Below, piece by piece: positions 1 to 30,721 of a DNA stretch of 35,188 nucleotides. The stretch comes from Bacteroidota bacterium (lineage in GTDB: Bacteria > Bacteroidota > Bacteroidia > Palsa-948), in contig SCSP01000130.1 in assembly GCA_004297845.1 (NCBI GenBank), positions 1 to 35,188 on the forward strand, in the 5' to 3' direction. Positions within the stretch are counted from its first letter, which is position 1. Every line of letters begins with the position of its first letter. The notes under the pieces were generated by a model, which had not been told where the DNA came from, did no database searches, and saw only the letters and a list, made by a program, of their open reading frames with translations. Made by a program: the position numbers and the translations under genes.

Positions 1-2039
1 CTGTTTGCATCTTGCAATTTGCAATCTGTAATCTGCAGTCTGCAATCTGTTTCGCCCAATACACCAAGCTGCTTGATTTCTCAGGCGCTGTAAACGGAAG
101 TAATCCTTATGGTTCGCTTGTTTCTGACGGAACTTTTCTCTATGGAATGACTTATAGCGGTGGTGCGAACAGTTATGGAGTAACTTTTAAAATAAAACCC
201 GATGGAACAGGATATTCCAAACTGCTTGATTTCTCAGGCTTTCCAAACGGATGCAGCCCCCTTGGATCTCTTATTTCCGATGGAACTTTCCTGTATGGAA
301 TGACAACTTATTGCGGAACAAACAGCGTAGGTTCCATTTTTAAAATAAAGCCCGATGGGACCGGATACGCCAAGCTGCTAGATTTCGCGGGCGCTGCAAA
401 TGGACAATACCCTACCGGTTCATTTATTTCTGATGGGGCTTTTCTGTATGGAACAACATCGACTGGCGGTACGAATAACATGGGAACCATCTTTAAAATA
501 AAACCCGATGGAACCGGATATGCCAAGCTACTCGACTTCGCAGGCGCGACAGATGGAAAGAATCCCCGCGGATCTCTTATTTCTGACGGAATCTTTCTCT
601 ATGGAATGACGCGCGGAGGCGGCATAAATGATTTGGGGGTCATCTTTAAAATAAAACCCGATGGAACAGGGTATGCCAGGATTCTTGACTTTTCAGGCGC
701 TGCAAACGGACAATATCCAAATGGCTCACTTATGTCTGACGGTGCTTTTCTCTATGGAATGACATCTCAGGGCGGTATAAACAATAAAGGTGTCATCTTC
801 AAAATAAAACCCGATGGAACCGGGTATTCCAAACTGCTCGATTTCGCGGGGACTGTCAATGGAAGCGGCCCTACCGGTTCTCTTATTTCTGACGGAACAT
901 TCTTATATGGAATGACAGATGATGGAGGCGCAAGCGATCTGGGAACCATTTTCAAAATAAAGACCGATGGTGCCGGGTATGTCAAATTAATGGACTTTTC
1001 AGGCGCTGCAAACGGAAAGTGGCCTTATGAATCTCTTGTTTCTGACGGAACCTTTCTCTATGGGATGACATATTATGGAGGCACAAACGATATGGGAACA
1101 GTGTTTAAGTATCAGTATAACACAGCGCCTGCCTGCATCGCATCCATCACAGGCAATGCAACAATATGCGCAGGACAAAGCGTCACCCTCACCGCTTCGG
1201 GAGGAACAACTTATTCATGGAATACCGGGGAGACAGCAACATCCATTGCAGTTTCGCCTTCAGCAAATGCAACTTATACGGTTACCGCTGCCACCGGCAC
1301 ATGTCTCGCAACAGCAACGGCTGCTGTTACGGTGAATCCGCTGCCAACCATATCCGTCAGCGGAAACACTTCGGTTTGTTTGGGGGGCTGTGATACGCTC
1401 ACCGCCTCGGGCGGTGTAACATACAGCTGGTCCCCGATGGGACAAACCGCAACGAGCGTTATTCTGTGCCCTGCCATTACGTCCTCTTATACCGCAACGG
1501 GAACAGATGCGAACGGATGCGCAAACACCGCTGCAACTTCCATAACTGTAAATTCTCTTCCCGCAACGCCAGCCATCACGGTGAACATGTCAACGCTTGC
1601 TTCCGGTTCGGCAGCGGGCTATCAATGGTACCTGAACGGGAACCCCATCAGCGGAGCGACTTCGCAATTCCATACCGCAACTCAGAACGGATTATATTCG
1701 GTTTGTGTTACGGATGCCAATGGCTGTTCCTCCTGTTCCGCGCCTTATAATTTTTCAACCACCGGAATTGCAGAAAATAACAACGCGAATGATATAAGCG
1801 TCTATCCTAATCCTACTAATGGAATATTCACCGTAACAGCAGCAGGATATGGGTACGAAATAGAAATTTACAATATAATGGGAGAAAAGATATTTCAATC
1901 AGTCATTCAGCAATTCAATAGTTTATTAATTGATTTTTCTTCTCAGCCGAGTGGAGTTTATTTCCTCCAAGTAAAATCGGGAAAGGAATCATTCACTCAA
2001 AAACTAATTATTTCATTATTACTACATTTACCCGAATAA
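1..2039 (+). CDS. T9SS-sorted GloVer tandem-repeat protein with Ig-like region (5' end not certain)
   Basis: Likely a secreted or cell-surface protein; its ligand is unknown. The frame is open to the left edge, so the start may lie outside the window; TTG at 12 is the first in-window candidate. A hydrophobic leader ends at FAQ, consistent with signal peptidase cleavage. Next come seven units of about 51 residues (core SDGTFLYGMT, then FKIKPDGTGY and KLLDFSGA), the pattern called choice-of-anchor tandem repeat GloVer. Two or three Ig/PKD-like segments follow (ICAGQSVTLTASGG, TYSW). The C-terminus is a T9SS type A sorting domain (SVYPNPTNGIFTV, then GVYFLQVKSGKESFTQKLI). Such domains usually end soon after KLI; here there is an extra SLLLHLPE tail. 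Most of the leader is encoded by a heptamer array. A coiled-coil gene starts 22 nt downstream and may be cotranscribed. The family call is firm; function is unknown. Confidence 0.85.
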   Translation, partial: VCILQFAICNLQSAICFAQYTKLLDFSGAVNGSNPYGSLVSDGTFLYGMTYSGGANSYGVTFKIKPDGTGYSKLLDFSGFPNGCSPLGSLISDGTFLYGMTTYCGTNSVGSIFKIKPDGTGYAKLLDFAGAANGQYPTGSFISDGAFLYGTTSTGGTNNMGTIFKIKPDGTGYAKLLDFAGATDGKNPRGSLISDGIFLYGMTRGGGINDLGVIFKIKPDGTGYARILDFSGAANGQYPNGSLMSDGAFLYGMTSQGGINNKGVIFKIKPDGTGYSKLLDFAGTVNGSGPTGSLISDGTFLYGMTDDGGASDLGTIFKIKTDGAGYVKLMDFSGAANGKWPYESLVSDGTFLYGMTYYGGTNDMGTVFKYQYNTAPACIASITGNATICAGQSVTLTASGGTTYSWNTGETATSIAVSPSANATYTVTAATGTCLATATAAVTVNPLPTISVSGNTSVCLGGCDTLTASGGVTYSWSPMGQTATSVILCPAITSSYTATGTDANGCANTAATSITVNSLPATPAITVNMSTLASGSAAGYQWYLNGNPISGATSQFHTATQNGLYSVCVTDANGCSSCSAPYNFSTTGIAENNNANDISVYPNPTNGIFTVTAAGYGYEIEIYNIMGEKIFQSVIQQFNSLLIDFSSQPSGVYFLQVKSGKESFTQKLIISLLLHLPE
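7..48. repeat. Heptamer array (GCAATCT-type) inside the signal peptide of the first gene
   Basis: Six consecutive 7-nt units: GCATCTT, GCAATTT, GCAATCT, GTAATCT, GCAGTCT and GCAATCT. They encode most of the hydrophobic leader. Because 7 is not a multiple of 3, the units are read in changing frames, giving the alternating ICNLQSAIC-like pattern. Confidence 0.75.
66..1115 (+). repeat. 153-bp coding tandem repeats (7 units)
   Basis: Unit starts fall at 66, 219, 372, 525, 678, 831 and 984, exactly 153 bp (51 codons) apart, each opening with a (K/R)-(L/I)-(L/M)-D-F codon block. The last unit decays after about 1100. The units are similar enough in DNA sequence to allow recombination that changes copy number. 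Confidence 0.9.
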
Positions 2040-8883: not shown

Positions 8884-9540
8884 ATGTTCACAGGAATTGT
8901 AGAACCCACCGGCAAAGTAATTTCTCTTAAAAAAGAAAAAAGTAATCTCAGGATCGGGATCGGGTGTTCTTTTGCAAAAGAACTGAATATCGGTCAAAGC
9001 ATTGCACATAACGGGGTCTGCTTAACTGTTGAACGCCTCCTCCCCGGCCCTTCTCCAAAGGAGAATGGAGCAAAAGCATACCTAGTTACAGCCGTGAAAG
9101 AAACCCTCCAAAAAACAAATCTGGGCACGCTGAAGATCGGAAGTATTGTTAACCTGGAACGTTCCTTAAAGATCGGAGACCGCTTAGACGGGCATTTTGT
9201 ACAGGGGCATGTGGATACGACAGCAACATGCGCTGAGATCAAAAAAGAAAAAGGAAGCTGGATTTTTCAGTTCGGAGTTCAGCCTTCGGAGTTTGAAGAA
9301 AAAAACCTGATTGTGGATAAAGGAAGTATTTGTGTTAATGGAGTAAGCCTGACGATAGTCAACGTATTTAACTCTCAACTACTAACTTCCGGCTCCCAAC
9401 TATACTTTTCCGCAGCGATCATCCCTCATACTTTCAAACACACTAATTTCAGTACACTTAAAAAAGGGGATGCTGTAAATATTGAGTTTGACATTCTCGG
9501 AAAACATATTGAAAAAATTCTTTCCACCCGTTTAAAATGA
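8884..9540 (+). CDS. ribE: Riboflavin synthase, alpha chain, with two short insertions
   Basis: Dismutates two 6,7-dimethyl-8-ribityllumazine molecules to give riboflavin. It shows the two-fold repeated lumazine-binding domain: MFTGIVE (1-7), AHNGVCLTV, LGTLKIGSIVNLERSLKIGDRLDGHFVQGHVD (hinge), then GVSLTIVNV and IPHTF.HTNFSTLKKGD.VN.EFDILGKH in the second half. At 218 residues it is longer than the roughly 195-200 usual in this phylum. The excess matches two inserts: residues 52-63 (LLPGPSPKENGA, a palindrome) and 163-174 (NSQLLTSGSQLY, a heptamer array). Both fall between strands, at loops before the conserved VTAV and SAAIIP blocks, so activity is probably kept. It lies upstream of polA across an ATTCGT array. 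Confidence 0.95.
   Translation: MFTGIVEPTGKVISLKKEKSNLRIGIGCSFAKELNIGQSIAHNGVCLTVERLLPGPSPKENGAKAYLVTAVKETLQKTNLGTLKIGSIVNLERSLKIGDRLDGHFVQGHVDTTATCAEIKKEKGSWIFQFGVQPSEFEEKNLIVDKGSICVNGVSLTIVNVFNSQLLTSGSQLYFSAAIIPHTFKHTNFSTLKKGDAVNIEFDILGKHIEKILSTRLK
9037..9072. repeat. Palindromic insert in ribE (PGPSPKENG)
   Basis: A perfect TTCTCC-AAA-GGAGAA hairpin lies at 9051-9065, in a C-rich then G-rich context. Its CTCCAAAGGAG core is the exact complement of the intergenic palindrome core at 26982-26992. It is read in frame as P-S-P-K-E-N-G. Confidence 0.7.
9370..9405. repeat. Heptamer array insert in ribE
   Basis: Five consecutive 7-nt units at 9370-9404: AACTCTC, AACTACT, AACTTCC, GGCTCCC and AACTATA. 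With one extra base the insert is 36 nt, which keeps the frame. Confidence 0.75.
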
Positions 9541-13972: not shown

Positions 13973-14917
13973 TCACATCACCCACTCAAACCCCTTCTTC
14001 AACATCGCTAACATTTTTTCTTCAGAACTGTTTTTCTCCGGCAAAAAATTATATGCCCAGTTTGCCTGAGGAGGGAGACTCATTAAAATAGATTCTGCCC
14101 GACCATTTGTTTCCAGTCCAAACTTTGTTCCACGGTCGTATATTAAATTAAACTCCGCGTAGCGTCCCCGCCTGAACAGTTGCCACTGCTTTTCTTTTTC
14201 TCCGAAGATTTTGCCTTTATTCTTGCGAATAAGGTGCGTATAGATAGGAAGGAAAACATTTCCTATTGCTTGTACAAATTCAAAAAGTTGTCCCCACCCG
14301 ACATCTTGTATTACTCCCCTCTCCTTTTGGAGAGGAGTAGGGGGTGAGGCGATATGGTCGAAAAAAATTCCACCGATGCCCCGTGTTTCATTTCTATGTT
14401 TGATAAAGAAATAATCATCTGCCCATTTTTTGAATTCAGGGTAAAATGAAGGATGAAATCGGTCACAAGTCGCTTTTAATGTCCGGTGAAAATAAATGGC
14501 ATCTGCTTCGTCAACATAAATGGGAGTGAGGTCAATGCCGCCACCGAACCACTCAGAAGTTCGGAGTGGGGAGTTCGGGGTTTGGAGTGAAAGATGCCGC
14601 ACATTCATGTGAATGATCGGCACCATCGGACTCTTAGGATGAATTACAAGGGAAACTCCTGATGCAAAAAATGTTGCAGGTTCTTTGGAAAGCAATTCAG
14701 GAGCGGGACCAAATACTTCCGAAAAATTTACTCCGCCTTTTTCGATCACATTCCCGTTCTGTATAACACGGGTTCTTCCGCCTCCACCACCTTCGCGGAT
14801 CCATTTGTCTTCCTGAAATTTTTCCAGACCATCGGCTTGTTCAAGCCCTTTACAGATAGTATCCTGAAGGCTTTGAAAATACTGTACTATGTCTCCTTTC
14901 TCAAACATAAATTTCAT
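13973..14917 (-). CDS. hemF: Oxygen-dependent coproporphyrinogen III oxidase, with two short insertions
   Basis: Converts coproporphyrinogen III to protoporphyrinogen IX using O2, which implies growth with oxygen. Family signatures include GGGGGRTRVI, GVNFSEVFG, IIHMNVR, WFGGGIDLTP, the RGIGGIFFDH block and FRRGRYAEFNLIYDRGTKFGLETNGR.ESILMSLPP. ATG at 14917 is preferred; a GTG at 14920 lies inside a hairpin repeat. Residue numbers here count from that GTG, so subtract one for the ATG start. Two inserts are unlike the family: 111-123 (SLQTPNSPLRTSE, heptamer array) between NVRHL and WFGGG, and 192-203 (SPPTPLQKERGV, palindrome) after FFDHIA. Without them the length is about 290, normal for the family. 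The positions are surface-loop-like and all core motifs are intact, so function is probably kept. Confidence 0.95.
   Translation of the reverse strand: MKFMFEKGDIVQYFQSLQDTICKGLEQADGLEKFQEDKWIREGGGGGRTRVIQNGNVIEKGGVNFSEVFGPAPELLSKEPATFFASGVSLVIHPKSPMVPIIHMNVRHLSLQTPNSPLRTSEWFGGGIDLTPIYVDEADAIYFHRTLKATCDRFHPSFYPEFKKWADDYFFIKHRNETRGIGGIFFDHIASPPTPLQKERGVIQDVGWGQLFEFVQAIGNVFLPIYTHLIRKNKGKIFGEKEKQWQLFRRGRYAEFNLIYDRGTKFGLETNGRAESILMSLPPQANWAYNFLPEKNSSEEKMLAMLKKGFEWVM
14312..14347. repeat. Palindromic insert in hemF (SPPTPLQKERGV)
   Basis: CTCTCC-TTTT-GGAGAG at 14319-14334 with outer ACTCC/GGAGT arms. The 36 nt are read in frame with K-E-R-G, matching the frame of the ribE (K-E-N-G) and TonB receptor (K-E-G-G) inserts. 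Confidence 0.75.
14552..14590. repeat. Heptamer array insert in hemF
   Basis: Five 7-nt units on the plus strand at 14555-14589: AGAAGTT, CGGAGTG, GGGAGTT, CGGGGTT and TGGAGTG. The last 17 nt match 19731-19747 in the DUF4175 gene with two mismatches, in the same reading frame. Confidence 0.8.
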
Positions 14918-14918
14918 C

Positions 14919-14972
14919 ACCGCTAAGACGCAAAAGTGCCAAGATTTTTTTTCGTCTTGGCGCCTTTGCGGT
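14919..14972. repeat. Hairpin repeat between metZ and hemF
   Basis: GCCAAGA (14938-14944) pairs with TCTTGGC (14955-14961). ACCGC (14919-14923) pairs with GCGGT (14968-14972), and GCAAAAG/CTTTGC add to the stem with a bulge. It abuts the hemF start codon and could act as a folded 5' leader. Confidence 0.65.
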
Positions 14973-14976
14973 AAAA

Positions 14977-16233
14977 TTATTTTTTACTGCTTTTAAGCGC
15001 GATTTCTATATCGTCAATAATATCATCGATGTGTTCCAGTCCAACCGACACACGAATCAACCCCGGAGTAATTCCAGCGGCCTTTTTTTCTGCTTCCGAA
15101 AGCTTTGAATGAGTAGAGGAAGCCGGATGAGTGGCAATAGTTCTGGTATCTCCCAGATTTGCGGAGAGGGAGATCATATCCAGCGCATCCATAAATTTTT
15201 TTGCGCGTTCGTACCCGTCCGCCTTGCGAGATTCGTCCTTGGGCGAACTTTTTATGGTAAATGTTATGACCCCGCCTCCTGCTTTCATCTGCTTCTTTGC
15301 CGTTTTGTATTGAGGATGAGAAGCAAGGAAAGGATAATTCACGGTTCCTATTTCGTTGTGCTTGCTGAGGTGTTCAGCAAGTTTCAATGCGTTATCACAA
15401 TGCCTGTCCATGCGAACGGCCAGTGTCTCCAGACTTTTAGATAATATCCACGCGTGGAAAGGAGAAAGCGCAGGACCAGTATTGCGACAGAACAGATAAA
15501 TTTCTTTTATCAACTCTTTTTTCCCGCAAACCGCACCGCCCAGAACGCGCCCTTGTCCGTCAATGAATTTGGTGGCGGAGTGTGTAATAATATCTGCTCC
15601 GTATTTTACCGGTTGTTGCAAATAAGGCGTGGCAAAACAATTATCCACGTGGTAAATCAGTTTATGCCTCTTCGCAATTTTTCCAATGGATTCCAGATCA
15701 AAAATTTCAAGTCCCGGATTGGAAGGAGTTTCCACAAAGATCATTTTTGTATTTTTTCGGATAAGCTTTTCTATTCCATGTAAATTGGAACCATCTCCAC
15801 CAGTCCGTAAAGATTCCCTCGGAGAGGCAGACCATCCTTCGGCTGGAAAATAAGAATGTTCTATTCCCCATTTAGGCAAATACTTGGTGATCAGGGTATG
15901 CGTGCTCCCGAAAATTGCACGTGCCGAAACAACATGATCTCCTGCTTTCAGAAAGGCCATGAAACTTGCGAACACCGCTGCCATGCCGGTAGCGGTGGCA
16001 TAGGCGGCATCTGTGCCTTCGAGTAAGGCCATCTTGTCTTCAAATTCTTTTACGGATGGATTGGAAAAACGGCTGTAAATGTTTGCTTCTACTTCATCTG
16101 TAAAAGCAGCACGCATGTGTTCCGCGTTGTCGAACGTAAAACCCGAAGTGAGAAACAGGGGGGAGGAATTTTCTTTCTCCGGGGTCTGCTTAATTCTTGT
16201 ACGGACTGCAATAGTTTCGAATTTTTTTCCCAT
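14977..16233 (-). CDS. metZ: O-succinylhomoserine sulfhydrylase / Cys-Met metabolism PLP enzyme, with two short insertions
   Basis: Fold-type I PLP enzyme of transsulfuration or direct sulfhydrylation in methionine synthesis. The signatures are SSPLFLTSGFTFD, YSRFSNPS, LEGTDAAYATATGMAAV, HVVSARAIFGST, FVETPSNPGLEI, HVDNCFATPYLQQP, the PLP lysine K222 in HSATKFIDGQGRVLGG, and RTIATHPASSTHS. The LGDTRTIATHPASSTHSKL end and overall pattern favour O-succinyl- or O-acetylhomoserine sulfhydrylase; cystathionine gamma-lyase/synthase is the alternative. Its 418 residues exceed the usual 385-395. Two stretches look inserted: 130-149 (PAEGWSASPRESLRTGGDGS) and 329-343 (SSPKDESRKADGYER). Both are encoded by imperfect palindromes. 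ATG 16233 gives the normal N-terminus. Confidence 0.9.
   Translation of the reverse strand: MGKKFETIAVRTRIKQTPEKENSSPLFLTSGFTFDNAEHMRAAFTDEVEANIYSRFSNPSVKEFEDKMALLEGTDAAYATATGMAAVFASFMAFLKAGDHVVSARAIFGSTHTLITKYLPKWGIEHSYFPAEGWSASPRESLRTGGDGSNLHGIEKLIRKNTKMIFVETPSNPGLEIFDLESIGKIAKRHKLIYHVDNCFATPYLQQPVKYGADIITHSATKFIDGQGRVLGGAVCGKKELIKEIYLFCRNTGPALSPFHAWILSKSLETLAVRMDRHCDNALKLAEHLSKHNEIGTVNYPFLASHPQYKTAKKQMKAGGGVITFTIKSSPKDESRKADGYERAKKFMDALDMISLSANLGDTRTIATHPASSTHSKLSEAEKKAAGITPGLIRVSVGLEHIDDIIDDIEIALKSSKK
15205..15249. repeat. Palindromic insert 2 in metZ
   Basis: Ends GTTCG (15207-15211) and CGAAC (15244-15248) form an inverted pair, with CCC and GGG continuing the stem past a bulge. It is read in frame as SPKDESRKADGYER. 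Confidence 0.6.
15787..15846. repeat. Palindromic insert 1 in metZ
   Basis: CCAGTCCG (15800-15807) and CGGCTGG (15840-15846) are inverted copies differing by one deleted base, around an inner CCTCGGAGAGG. It is read as an AEGWSASPRESLRTGGDG loop between GIEHSYF and the NLHGIEKLI helix. Confidence 0.6.
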
Positions 16234-16317
16234 ATTAAAGCGAAACTACAATGAATTTTGGAATCCTGTTAATAGGGAAAGACAGTTCCTTCGACAAACT
16301 CAAAGTGACAGCGAGTG

Positions 16318-16731
16318 TTATTTTTTTAATATGAACTCGAGGATCACCTTAGTTCCTTTGTCCTCAAAAGTTACCTTGTCACACAAGTGCCTCATTAAAA
16401 AGATGCCGCGGCCGGTGGGCTTCTCAATGTTCTTTGGATCCGTTGGATCGGGAAGGTTATTGAAATCAAATCCAGTGCCCTGATCTTTAACGGTGAAATA
16501 AAGCGTATCATCCTTTACTTTAAACGTAACCTCAATATGGGTATCCGGATTTGCCTTGTTGCCGTGCTGAAGTCCGTTGTTAACGGCCTCGGTGAGGGCC
16601 ACTAAAATATGCCCGTAAATTTCCTCTTTGATGTCAAAAAGGTCGCATACATCATCCACCAGTTTCTCAACAAGTACAATGTTCTCGGATTTAGAGGGGA
16701 TGAGCAATTTCTGATTTTCAGACAAAACCAT
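16318..16731 (-). CDS. RsbW-like anti-sigma / serine-threonine kinase ATPase (HATPase_c)
   Basis: A 137-residue single-domain GHKL ATPase of the RsbW/SpoIIAB type, which binds or phosphorylates partner proteins in partner switching. The N-box is ALTEAVNNGLQHGN (45-58), the G1 box is DQGTGFDF (83-90) and the G2 box is GRGIFLMRHL (107-116), followed by a short GTKVILEF strand. All ATP-binding elements are present. It starts 2 nt after the DUF4175 stop, so the two are almost certainly cotranscribed, although no sigma factor or STAS antagonist is nearby. Candidate partners are the PP2C phosphatase and Sia proteins elsewhere in the window or unlinked STAS proteins. Confidence 0.9.
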   Translation of the reverse strand: MVLSENQKLLIPSKSENIVLVEKLVDDVCDLFDIKEEIYGHILVALTEAVNNGLQHGNKANPDTHIEVTFKVKDDTLYFTVKDQGTGFDFNNLPDPTDPKNIEKPTGRGIFLMRHLCDKVTFEDKGTKVILEFILKK

Positions 16732-16733
16732 AA

Positions 16734-19700
16734 TTATTTTTGTTCGTTAGCGAAATTATTAAAATACTCAGATACCTTATTTTTGTAAAAACTCTTAAAA
16801 GAAGGAGGAACAGTTTTCAGAAGTTCGGTCTCTTTCTCTTTACGCTTGTTATACTCGCTAAAATCAGAAAGGTTACGTTTATGGTCATCTTTTGCCTGAG
16901 TAGCCTGCCTTTTTTGCTCAGTTTCTCGTTCTTTTTCGGCTTTTTCAAAATCCAGCAGTTTTTCCATGATCTGATTCTGCCTGTTTATGGTTTCTTCGGT
17001 GATTGTTCGGTTCACAACATCCTTTTGTGACTGCTCTAACAATTTGAGGGTATTCTCCAGTTCCCCGGGTTTCATGCCACCCTCTTTTTGCATTTCCATC
17101 ATCATTTGCTTGAGGGCCGACTGCTGTGCTGCTATCTTCACCAGTTCCTGGCTCCAGCCGCTGTTGCCTTGCTGAGTGCCTCCCTCTTTTTTGCCCTGTT
17201 CCATGGATTTTTTAAGTGCTTCCATCTGCTTTTTGAGTTGCTGCTGCATCTGCTTCATTTTAGCGCTGGAAGGTTTTTCTCCGTGACCAGGTTTCTTACA
17301 GGATCCCGGTTTGGAACAGGACCCGCTTTTCTTACAATTATTCTGCATCTGATTCAATGCTTCATTGAGCATGAGTGCCAGGTTGTTGATGGAGGTCATG
17401 GAGAATTGCTGACGGGAGGAAATATCGGGCGTGAACTTGTTCTCCCGTTTGCCCATCAATGAGATGGATTTTTCCATGTTGGAATTAATAGCTGCAATTT
17501 CCCGGTTCACTGTAGAAGCAATAGATACCTGCCTTTTGCTCAATGCCAGTAAACTGTCTTCGATCATTTGGGAATCATCCTTGAGTTTTTTCTGTTGCTG
17601 GGAAAGTTTTACATACTGGGGATTATCCGTTTTTGTCTTATCAACGTCTTTCATCAATGCTTCCTGATCGAAGGAAAGCTGGATGAGGTTGTTGAGGATA
17701 TCCCGAAGCGCATGTTCGTCCTCCGCCTCCTGTTCCGATTCCTGCTCCCCCATGGCCTCCTGCATCTGCTGTGCCATCTGGTTCATTTTCTGAGAGGCAT
17801 CCTTTTGCTTTCCGGACGCATCTTTTTTCTTGCCTTCGTTCAGTTCCTTGCTGCTGTTCTGCATGTCCTTTTTGATGTCTTCCTGCTTTTCTTTTGTATC
17901 GGGCATGTTCTGTGGTTCCTCCAGTTCGCTGTTCTTCTTCTCCATATCCTGCATATCCTTTTGAATATCTTCAAATTGCTTGTTCAGGGAATCCTGTTCC
18001 TTTTTGATCTCCTGGCTGTCTGATTTCTTCTCAAGGGACTTATCGCCAAGATCATCCTGCTTTTTTGAAAGTTCGTTCAGCTTCTCCAGGGTCTTCTCCA
18101 TCTTCTGCTCGAACTCCATTTTTTTGAATAGCTCAAGGGTACGATCCAGTTCCTTCTCCATGTCCTTATTAGACAGCTGCATTTTCTCCATCATCTCCTG
18201 GATCTTGTTCTTGTCCATCTTATCCATCATCTTCTGCATATCTTCCATGATCTTTTTCATCTCCTCGCTCATCACCTGGTCTATCAGCTTCTGCAGTTGC
18301 TGCTGCTTTTCAGCCAATGCATCATTGGGTTTCTGAAATTCGGATTGCTGCTGGTTATTCTGCTGGTTCTCTTTCTTTATCTCGTTCACTTTTTGCTCAA
18401 GCTCTTTCTGTTGCTTCAACACTTCTTTCAGTTTTTTCTTTTCTTCCCAGGAAAGGCTTTTCTTTTCCAGAATTTTTTTGTAGAGGTCGTCCATTTCCTT
18501 CTGAAGTTCTTTTGCCTGTTTGATGCTTTCCTCCATTTCCTCTTTGATCTCGGAATTATTCTTTTCTGTATTCCGGTTGATCTCGCTGAGCGTAGGTGCG
18601 CGGTAGATCATGCTTTGCGAGCGGGTGGGCTTGTGTCCGTTCACTCCATCGTTGTCCCACACTTCAAAATAATATTCTATCTCATCACCGGGTGAGATGG
18701 TTAGGTTTATCATATCCCAGTAGTGATAAAATGATTGAGAAGAAACACCCTTTGCAATGGGAATTGGAACAGAGGAAAGAGGAAAGAGGGAAGAGGGAAG
18801 AGGGGAAGCCGAATCATTATGAACTAAAAATTTATAATTAAAAGTGAGTGCGCTGAATCCATAATCATCTTTAATGCCTCCTGCATAATAAAACTGCCGG
18901 AGTGATACGGAATCTTTCTTCTCTTCCACCGCAATGACAGGGAACGCATCGGGTACTACGTTCACGGAGTAAGTGATTGAATCCCTGTTCTGCAGAAATT
19001 CGTTGGAGGTGGTGATGGAATAAGTTTTGTCTTTCAGGAAAATCTGCGTGGCCGTAAATTTGTTTTCATCGGAGGGTGAAACAAAAAATGCGGTATCAGC
19101 GAAGGATAACCTCATCTGCTTCGTATGCTGCGTGGAGAAATTCCATGACACTTTTGTCCCGGCAGGAATTACCAGATCCCCTGTATTGTGAAGGGTTTCG
19201 TCTTTTTTTTCCAGGTATTCCGGATAACTGAGATCCAGTGAGAAGTCCAGTAAAATTGGTTTAGGCAAGGCAATCAATTGATATTCTTTAGAAGAAAATC
19301 CATCCGCAGAAAGCTGAAAGGAAATATTTTTCTGCACGTTCTTAAACAAAAAGCTGAATGTAGTTTTACCTTCCTTCGCGAGTTTGTATTCGCTGCCGTT
19401 AAGGTTCACAAAGATTTGTTCAGGAATTTCCTTGCCGTCCATTTTCACCGCAAGCAAAAAATCTTCCTGCTGGGGAGTTTTAAGTTCTTTGTTCTCAATG
19501 ATGAATTGAAAGGGCGCCTGTTTTTCAAAATAAGTTCCATGTTTTATCAATCGCTCTGTACTTTCAGTGATAATGCCGGGTGCTCTAAAAAGAACAGCGA
19601 AGAACAATAGAAGAGGAACCAGTGCGTATTTTAAATACTTTCTGTTCTGCCTCAGGTCAATGGCTGAAGTGAACGGGATAGGCTTGAACTCTTTTATTTT

Positions 19701-20108
19701 TTGGTTGATACTTGCAAAAACCAGCTGGTGGTTCGGGCTTTGGAGTTCCGAGAGCTGCCGGAGTTGAAGAACGTTAAGCAGTTTATCCTGCACATTTGAA
19801 AAATGCTTGCCTATAATATCGGATGCCTGTTCGTTGGTAATAGTCGTTCCCATTTTGTTCAGGTGCAGCAGGGGAATGACAATCAGTTTTGTGAGAACAT
19901 ATCCGTTTGTGATTACAAAAAGATAGAACAGAGCTGTGCGGAAAACGATATCAAAATGCCCGAAGTATTCCATCACGGCAATGACAAGAAAAAATGCCAG
20001 AACTGCTCCGGTGGAATACAGAACTCCGCGGATGAGCCGGTTCGTGTAATACTTGCGGATGAACTCATCCAGCTTGGCAAGCAAGATGTCATATTCTGAG
20101 TTATACAT
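16734..20108 (-). CDS. DUF4175 family membrane protein with very long charged coiled-coil region
   Basis: A 1124-residue protein. It has two N-terminal transmembrane segments (about 27-47 and 57-80) and a third at about 157-172 (LVPLLLFFAVLF). An Ig-like beta region (about 190-510) includes YYFEVWDNDGVNGHKPTRS. A very long Lys/Glu/Gln/Met-rich coiled coil runs from about 520 to 1100, interrupted by a CSKPGSCKKPGHGEKPSS spacer. This is the arrangement of DUF4175 proteins, which are common in Bacteroidota and of unknown function. Two short insertions look repeat-derived: about 120-127 (LSELQSPN) and about 434-448 (SPLPSSLFPLSSVP). ATG 20108 is preceded by an AGGAGG sequence. The RsbW-like ATPase gene follows 2 nt after its stop. 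Confidence 0.9.
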   Translation of the reverse strand: MYNSEYDILLAKLDEFIRKYYTNRLIRGVLYSTGAVLAFFLVIAVMEYFGHFDIVFRTALFYLFVITNGYVLTKLIVIPLLHLNKMGTTITNEQASDIIGKHFSNVQDKLLNVLQLRQLSELQSPNHQLVFASINQKIKEFKPIPFTSAIDLRQNRKYLKYALVPLLLFFAVLFRAPGIITESTERLIKHGTYFEKQAPFQFIIENKELKTPQQEDFLLAVKMDGKEIPEQIFVNLNGSEYKLAKEGKTTFSFLFKNVQKNISFQLSADGFSSKEYQLIALPKPILLDFSLDLSYPEYLEKKDETLHNTGDLVIPAGTKVSWNFSTQHTKQMRLSFADTAFFVSPSDENKFTATQIFLKDKTYSITTSNEFLQNRDSITYSVNVVPDAFPVIAVEEKKDSVSLRQFYYAGGIKDDYGFSALTFNYKFLVHNDSASPLPSSLFPLSSVPIPIAKGVSSQSFYHYWDMINLTISPGDEIEYYFEVWDNDGVNGHKPTRSQSMIYRAPTLSEINRNTEKNNSEIKEEMEESIKQAKELQKEMDDLYKKILEKKSLSWEEKKKLKEVLKQQKELEQKVNEIKKENQQNNQQQSEFQKPNDALAEKQQQLQKLIDQVMSEEMKKIMEDMQKMMDKMDKNKIQEMMEKMQLSNKDMEKELDRTLELFKKMEFEQKMEKTLEKLNELSKKQDDLGDKSLEKKSDSQEIKKEQDSLNKQFEDIQKDMQDMEKKNSELEEPQNMPDTKEKQEDIKKDMQNSSKELNEGKKKDASGKQKDASQKMNQMAQQMQEAMGEQESEQEAEDEHALRDILNNLIQLSFDQEALMKDVDKTKTDNPQYVKLSQQQKKLKDDSQMIEDSLLALSKRQVSIASTVNREIAAINSNMEKSISLMGKRENKFTPDISSRQQFSMTSINNLALMLNEALNQMQNNCKKSGSCSKPGSCKKPGHGEKPSSAKMKQMQQQLKKQMEALKKSMEQGKKEGGTQQGNSGWSQELVKIAAQQSALKQMMMEMQKEGGMKPGELENTLKLLEQSQKDVVNRTITEETINRQNQIMEKLLDFEKAEKERETEQKRQATQAKDDHKRNLSDFSEYNKRKEKETELLKTVPPSFKSFYKNKVSEYFNNFANEQK
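18774..18808. repeat. Heptamer array in the DUF4175 gene
   Basis: Five 7-nt units on the plus strand: GGAAAGA, GGAAAGA, GGGAAGA, GGGAAGA and GGGGAAG. They are read on the minus strand as the LPSSLFPLSS loop between VHNDSAS and VPIPIAKG. Confidence 0.8.
19727..19754. repeat. Second repeat-like segment in the DUF4175 gene, shared with hemF
   Basis: Positions 19731-19747 match 14573-14589 in hemF at 15 of 17 positions. Heptamer phasing is visible (CGGGCTT, TGGAGTT). Both genes read it on the minus strand as L-Q-(S/T)-P-N, at residues 122-126 here. Confidence 0.7.
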
Positions 20109-29704: not shown

Positions 29705-30721
29705 ATGAAAACAATATCTTTAATCTCGTTTTTTGTACTTGTGTTTCTTTGCCAGATTTTTTCTTCCTCTGCTCAAGAACCTCTTTTTCCCATCGTAGAA
29801 AAAGGGAAATACGGATTCATCAATAAATCGGGCAATGTTGTTATTGCGCCTCGGTTTGATTTTGCCGAATCCTTTTCTGAGGGAATGGCAGCAGTAGGCG
29901 TTGCGGGAAAACGCGGATTTATAGACCAGACGGGGAAAGTTGTTATTCCCCTGCAATTTGACAAAACCACTTTTTTTTCAGAGGGTGTGGCAAGCGGAAA
30001 AATGAATGGCAGCTGGACCTATTTCGACAAAACAGGAAAAGTGCTTATTGAGCCGGACTGCGATTATGCCTATAATTTTTCGGATGGTGTTGCGCGTTTG
30101 CAGGTTGGCAGCAAGATGGGATTCATCAATAAAACCGGAAGTTTTGTTGTGAAACCCGAATACGATGGCGCATACGATTTTTCAGAGTCACTTGCACGTG
30201 TTAAGAAAGGCAACAAATGGGGGTATATAGATAAAACAGGCAAAGAGGTAATTAGTTTTCTATTTGACGACTGCTTTGATTTCATGGAAGGATTTGCCAA
30301 TGTTCGCAGAGGAGATGGCGAAGCCGGCAAATGGGGGTTCATTGATAAAACCGGAAAAATTGTCATCGGACTAAAATACGAAAGAGCCTGGCCATTTTCT
30401 GAAGGGATGGCTCTCGTCCGGATAGGAGATTTCAAAAAAGGAAAGTACGGATACATCAATAAAACAGGAGAAGAAGTAATCCCTGCCACGTTTACCGGGG
30501 GTGATTATTTCAAAGATGGAATTGCTTGCATCACTTCAAGCTTAGGCACCAAGAGTGCTACCTTTCAGTTCATCGATAAAAAAGGAATCGTGGCGATCAA
30601 TAAAAATTTCACGTTCCTCACTGCGTTCAAAAACGGTCTGGCAAAAGTTGCCAGCTCCGATTTGAAAGCCGGCTATAGCTATGGCTACATTGATAAAACG
30701 GGGAAATATGTTTGGCCATAA
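29705..30721 (+). CDS. Secreted WG-repeat protein
   Basis: A 338-residue protein with a signal peptide (about 1-24, SSSAQ). It then has about eight WG repeats of some 35-45 residues, built as KYGFINKSGNVVIAPRFDFAESFSEGMAAV, then GFIDQTGKVVIPLQFD, GYIDKTGKEVISFLFD and so on to the C-terminus. WG repeats form beta-rich domains in many bacterial secreted proteins; their function is generally unknown, and some act in binding. It is divergent from nbaC and has no obvious partner. A near -7 box (GATATTTG) precedes it. The repeat call is certain, the function is not. Confidence 0.9.
   Translation: MKTISLISFFVLVFLCQIFSSSAQEPLFPIVEKGKYGFINKSGNVVIAPRFDFAESFSEGMAAVGVAGKRGFIDQTGKVVIPLQFDKTTFFSEGVASGKMNGSWTYFDKTGKVLIEPDCDYAYNFSDGVARLQVGSKMGFINKTGSFVVKPEYDGAYDFSESLARVKKGNKWGYIDKTGKEVISFLFDDCFDFMEGFANVRRGDGEAGKWGFIDKTGKIVIGLKYERAWPFSEGMALVRIGDFKKGKYGYINKTGEEVIPATFTGGDYFKDGIACITSSLGTKSATFQFIDKKGIVAINKNFTFLTAFKNGLAKVASSDLKAGYSYGYIDKTGKYVWP

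Follow-up and report, generated by a model that had tools for sequence, protein, structure and literature searches.

The window analysed here, the whole 35,188-nt stretch of a contig from a Bacteroidota bacterium, carries genes for riboflavin synthase, for the oxygen-dependent coproporphyrinogen III oxidase HemF and for a membrane protein of the DUF4175 family, each with at least one short array of 7-nt units (Table 1). A preliminary description of this DNA had drawn attention to a 17-nt stretch shared by hemF and the DUF4175 gene, and proposed that its common reading frame could reflect either selection for a tolerable peptide or a common origin by insertion. The two stretches, GTTCGGGGTTTGGAGTG at 14573–14589 and GTTCGGGCTTTGGAGTT at 19731–19747, are indeed present and differ at 2 of 17 positions. 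Both are read from the minus strand in identical codon phase, as LQTPN in HemF and as LQSPN in the DUF4175 protein. Sequences resembling the 17-mer are also found above chance genome-wide, with 59 matches at up to three mismatches compared to 27 for a reversed control.

Table 1. Positions of the genes, heptamer arrays and other repeats discussed in the text (window coordinates unless a locus label is given).
Feature	Position	Strand	Details
Other repeat, first ORF	64-1128		153-nt (51-residue) repeat, at least six copies in tandem
Riboflavin synthase, two lumazine-binding domains	8884..9540	+	PF00677 E 3.4e-44
Third GTTYGGR-like array, sense, in riboflavin synthase	9259..9298	+	score 24/28; peptide WIFQFGVQPSEFEE
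hemF, oxygen-dependent coproporphyrinogen III oxidase	13973..14920	-	PF01218 E 3.5e-119; PDB homologues
Palindromic insert in hemF	14313-14338		RNA fold z -4.6
Heptamer array GTTYGGR (about 4.4 units) in hemF, antisense to gene	14558..14588	+	score 26/28; peptide SLQTPNSPLRT
DUF4175 family membrane protein gene	16734..20108	-	PF13779 E 3.1e-8, above gathering score
Second, clear period-7 array in DUF4175 gene (site 2)	18771..18804		AGAGGAA/AAGAGGG, sense CCTCTTY; peptide PLPSSLFPLSS
Degenerate heptamer array (3 units), DUF4175 hypervariable loop (site 1)	19730..19752	+	score 19/21; peptide LSELQSPN
Other repeat, ORF at 29705-30721	29799-30712		diverged copies of a KGKYGFINKTGNVV-like motif
Other repeat, contig end	34861-35184		9-nt tandem repeat
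Putative signal-peptide-core arrays	L217:14991-15031; L214:13665-13699; L204:13585-13620; L227:3436-3481

Repeats of other lengths lie elsewhere in the window. The 9-nt repeat at the contig end codes for a collagen-like run, and the diverged repeats at 29799–30712 make their ORF resemble, going by its sequence, a WG-repeat protein.

Heptamer arrays in hemF, DUF4175 and riboflavin synthase

Taken alone, the pair of 17-mers is expected by chance. Five dinucleotide shuffles of the window yielded 47–69 same-strand 17-mer pairs with up to two mismatches per shuffled window, and the real window holds 233 such pairs, including 111 outside two obvious repeat tracts. The entire likeness could be of this kind: a stretch of 35 kb offers dozens of random near-matches, of which the pair would be one, and the copy in DUF4175 would have nothing to do with the repeat. 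Besides the shuffles, the one-in-three probability of a shared frame speaks for this explanation, as does the DUF4175 site being only weakly periodic at 7 nt. A consensus unit, GTTYGGR, was derived from elsewhere in the genome and then scored on the window. Both sites are the window's top scores against this independent consensus, and neither score of (GTTYGGR)n (26/28 at hemF, 19/21 at DUF4175) was reached in 300 shuffled windows. The hemF loop moreover exceeds that of its congener by 21 nt, and three congeners carry tandem repeats in the DUF4175 loop. We consider chance a very unlikely explanation for the sites as a whole. For the hemF array it is refuted by the consensus score and the longer loop, and we accept it for the isolated pair only.

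The hemF array reads GTTCGGA GTGGGGA GTTCGGG GTTTGGA. Only two members of the genus have hemF, so the comparison within the genus is with a single congener (G006), whose protein is the closest ortholog (76% identical). It has RYLQLETKEWFGGG where the window has RHLSLQTPNSPLRTSEWFGGG, and the seven additional residues in the window correspond to 21 nt, or three units. Among the outgroup proteins, 21 of 28 are 18 nt shorter. In two structurally known HemF proteins the loop at the place of the array is only two residues shorter than in the window, and this length is therefore evidently tolerated. An inverted partner was sought at the hemF array and none was found; the array lacks the stem-loop palindrome that characterizes Rickettsia palindromic elements. 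Elsewhere in the same gene lies a palindromic insert, ACTCCTCTCC AAAA GGAGAGGGGAGT, which codes for SPPTPLQKERGV and makes the protein about 9 residues longer than that of G006 at this position. Similar peptides (LTPLPKERGEG, PLSQGRE) are found in other congener genes.

In the DUF4175 gene, site 1 is located between KLLNVLQL and ASINQK. Its periodicity is weak (10/16 lag-7 matches, the same as at lag 9), and with an array this degenerate, it is the consensus score, together with the history of the site, that assigns it to the family. Congeners carry period-8 arrays at this place in three cases (AATCAACC in G001 and G005, TCTTCCAT in G004) and short loops in two. These period-8 arrays (L050, L051, L052) stand out, period 8 being otherwise rare in the genus. 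Site 2 was compared in five congeners. A different heptamer unit is present in four of them (CATCAAC in G001, CTGCTCT and CTTACAT in G004, GCCATCT and TACCTCT in G005, and AAATCCC in G006), and no heptamer array in G003. The loop at this site has equal length and differing units.

The riboflavin synthase site was found by the consensus scan (at 9270) and compared with relatives only afterwards. A period-7 array occupies this loop in 6 of 6 congeners, with 13–15 of 15 lag-7 matches and units that include AAAATCC, AAAATTC, AAGTCTC and TTCAAAG. It is absent from all 13 outgroup proteins examined (6–10 of 15 lag-7 matches), most of which have loops 3 residues shorter.

Genome-wide, three successive GTTYGGR units (up to two mismatches) gave 18 overlapping matches in 9 arrays compared to 1 match for the reversed control. 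Such matches are present in all seven genomes of the genus and in 4 of 93 other genomes from a sample of relatives, and a longer pattern in 4/7 genomes of the genus versus 7/388 others in the class. A single contig of a class-level relative outside the genus (G347 contig 32) holds 8 matches of the longer GGAGTTY pattern, and the repeat is therefore not strictly confined to the genus.

The shared frame follows from the unit length. As 7 is not a multiple of three, reading along an array takes in each frame in turn and is back at the first after 21 nt; (TCCGAAC)n encodes the cycle SELRTPN in any frame, and both of its strands are stop-free. The two sites would thus encode alike peptides in whatever frame they were read, so that selection on the frame is unnecessary and the frame match itself carries little information. 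What holds of the proposed peptide selection is that the arrays look filtered for a peptide that can be tolerated, as seen in their orientation and their stop-free units. GGAGTTY arrays are antisense to the gene in 57 cases and sense in 18 (p = 7e-6). Among 56 coding arrays the unit is stop-free in 54 when read sense and in 22 when read antisense, the sense figure being partly built in, as an open frame was required.

Period-7 arrays across the genus

The genus is uncultured and its named relatives are distant, the best being the MAG Bacteroidetes bacterium nzgw125 with 81% in DNA polymerase I. Arrays were surveyed in 400-kb samples from three congeners (1.2 Mb), taken from contigs known to hold at least one array and thus subject to a mild ascertainment bias; the assemblies were mostly fragmented and genes were called by a simple ORF model. 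The samples contained 15, 27 and 28 period-7 arrays (70 in total), versus only 0–3 each for periods 4–6 and 8–13, with harmonics of period 7 at 14 and 21. Two 200-kb outgroup samples held 1 and 4 period-7 arrays. In the genus the 7-nt unit is in excess over other unit lengths, which is the mark of heptanucleotide SSRs. Array size is about 30–35 nt, or 4–5 units. The units of the 70 arrays fall into 51 classes, and some units recur above expectation (38 coincident pairs versus 4.2 expected). An assembly artefact is not favoured: arrays of this size should fit within one read, and they are present in seven separate genomes.

Inside the ORF model lie 56 of the 70 arrays, somewhat under the 90% expected for random stretches. 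We count this as many because tandem repeats with units longer than 3 nt are reported to be under-represented in E. coli genes (PMC4692102). The host genes include those for LeuRS, ValRS, dihydroorotate dehydrogenase, AnmK, GlmM, KDO transferase, dihydrofolate reductase, UbiE and glycine decarboxylase. Coding arrays are centred within the first 40 codons in 22/56 cases, compared to 10.7% expected (p = 2.7e-8), and many of these early arrays look, going by sequence, like hydrophobic cores of signal peptides, e.g. ILASGFWLLASDLFA. In several congener genes such putative cores consist of GGCTTCT or GGCTACT arrays (LASGFWL or LATGYWL cycles).

The encoded peptides show seven-residue cycles, as expected if a seven-residue peptide repeat were favoured at the protein level and the DNA pattern were secondary. 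The DNA period is, however, 7 nt and not 21, and the remaining 14 of the 70 arrays lie outside genes. We reject this explanation, which we consider extremely improbable, because the matches fall at lag 7 nt across codon positions, which selection on amino acids does not explain.

Unit turnover at orthologous sites

Sites orthologous to an array were compared in 304 within-genus ortholog pairs. In 61% of the comparisons the site had 12 or more of 15 lag-7 matches, versus 2.5% at random positions in the same genes, and at lags 4–6 and 8–10 the threshold was reached in 0–2%. These pairwise comparisons repeat sites, and distinct sites were counted separately. There are 31; more than one species carries an array at 15 of them, and at all 15 the consensus unit differs between species, mostly with a small change in length; at least two differ by about one base. 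In AnmK the loop has one length in six species and carries four kinds of heptamer, with one species lacking an array. In PyrD the loop is as long as in 13/15 outgroups, nearly all of which are aperiodic, and it holds a perfect CTCACTT array in G004 and CTCCRAA in G006. In other genes the loop is mostly 3–24 nt longer in the genus than in outgroups. Arrays therefore often bring a gain in length, not necessarily by a multiple of 7 or 21, and purely length-neutral overwriting is clear only in PyrD. All interspecies length differences are multiples of three, as surviving genes would show anyway.

In-frame insertion into coding genes is seen both in hemF, by comparison with G006, and in GlmM of G000 and G004 (L294, L295). 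The latter carries a clean 63-nt insert in the C-terminal domain, composed of inverted heptamer halves (AGGAGTC.. / ..AACTCCA), with a hairpin z of -3.8; five congeners and 13 outgroups lack it. A model of pure 21-nt insertion was not retained. It predicts a peak of indels of 7 residues, and the indel spectrum between congeners has no clear peak there (20, versus 18 of 6 residues and 5 of 8, several of them from one gene).

These data show a strong preference for period 7, diverse units, a mostly genic location, and near-constant length with differing units at orthologous sites. With units turning over at each site, sites that resemble one another do so more through a shared process than through shared descent. 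The suggested common origin by insertion agrees with the longer loop around the hemF copy, but as units vary between species at any one site, the hemF and DUF4175 sites need no shared origin. Our results point to the 17-mers being fragments of 7-nt tandem arrays and to an unusual mutation process, with no link between hemF and DUF4175.

Known repeat systems and the origin of the arrays

In many bacteria, heptanucleotide repeats are known to outnumber all other repeats with long units, and slippage has been proposed for them (PMC4679880, which cites Mrazek 2007). Described families include GGGNATC of Xanthomonas and Nostoc (PMC4692102) and TAACTGA of Beggiatoaceae (PMC4679880), and a preference for four units has been reported (PMC4692102). 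The arrays of this genus are alike in their 7-nt unit, few copies, genome-wide scatter and lineage specificity. They differ in that described families are mostly intergenic with one favoured unit, whereas these arrays are mostly genic, with many units and site-wise turnover. Intergenic location, which the genus arrays do not share, is a reported habit of those families and not a strict definition. The arrays are heptanucleotide repeats, a known kind, with an unusual place and turnover. Heptamer arrays that lie in coding sequence and change their unit are not described in the open papers searched, which is weak evidence of absence.

Phase-variable contingency repeats switch genes through changes in copy number. 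They too are genic tandem repeats with a unit that is not a multiple of three, but in the genus the loops keep nearly the same length from one species to the next, and housekeeping enzymes are the hosts. Rickettsia palindromic elements form families with a recognisable sequence and a roughly fixed length. They insert in frame into the surface loops of conserved proteins that are unrelated to one another, as seen here in GlmM and hemF, and some of the inserts here are likewise hairpin-capable. In contrast to them, the genus arrays share a period and not a sequence, the hemF array has no palindrome, and an inverted partner is present only in a minority.

A dispersed or mobile repeat family of that sort, with heptamer elements, some hairpin-forming, inserting in frame and then decaying, would account for GGAGTTY at many unrelated loci and for the coincidence of units above expectation. 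Close array pairs (within 80 nt) among 106 arrays, 10 inverted versus 1 direct, and the GlmM insert in two species agree with it as well. It is at odds with the differing units at every shared orthologous site, the usually conserved lengths within the genus, the 51 unit classes and the unpaired hemF array. We regard such a family as rather unlikely, and reject a single family of inserted elements as the whole story because units differ at orthologous sites.

The explanation that we favour, and consider probable, is a mutational process in 7-nt steps that yields short arrays, which persist where they are tolerated and whose units are rewritten by misalignment and realignment and then selected. 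The tolerant places would be surface loops, linkers and the cores of signal peptides. Within an array, the strand being synthesised would pair out of place by one 7-nt unit, and copying would proceed in the shifted register until realignment, overwriting neighbouring units with little or no net change in length. Occasional true insertions, such as the 21 nt in hemF and the 63 nt in GlmM, would survive if their net length was a multiple of three. Selection would then retain stop-free units with a seven-residue cycle that fits the site, polar SELRTPN in loops and hydrophobic LASGFWL in signal peptides. Single 7-nt steps would break the frames of essential genes, and lengths are steady while units change; misalignment followed by realignment is therefore the most economical mechanism. 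The inverted close pairs and the hairpin-forming GlmM insert show that insertion or strand switching occurs too. Several points stand against misalignment and realignment. The mechanism is inferred and no mutation event was observed, the excess recurrence of units fits dispersal or convergence equally, there is no clear 7-residue indel peak, and DUF4175 site 1 is only weakly 7-periodic.

A bolder and doubtful proposal is that a process of the genus, possibly with dedicated machinery, uses 7-nt tandem copies to overwrite the sequence of loops and signal peptides in situ, at little or no net length change. If true, it would be a standing engine that changes housekeeping proteins without breaking their frames.

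Genes are expected to be cleared of repeats whose unit length cannot be divided by three. Despite this expectation, the arrays of the genus occupy fixed sites in conserved enzymes, with a unit that differs per species, and thereby provide a natural experiment on the origin and homogenisation of 7-nt repeats. When unrelated proteins of such genomes share peptides like TPNSELR or NHQPSTI, these are traces of repeats in the DNA and not homology. The arrays show a route by which a process at the DNA level supplies proteins with loop and signal-peptide sequence.
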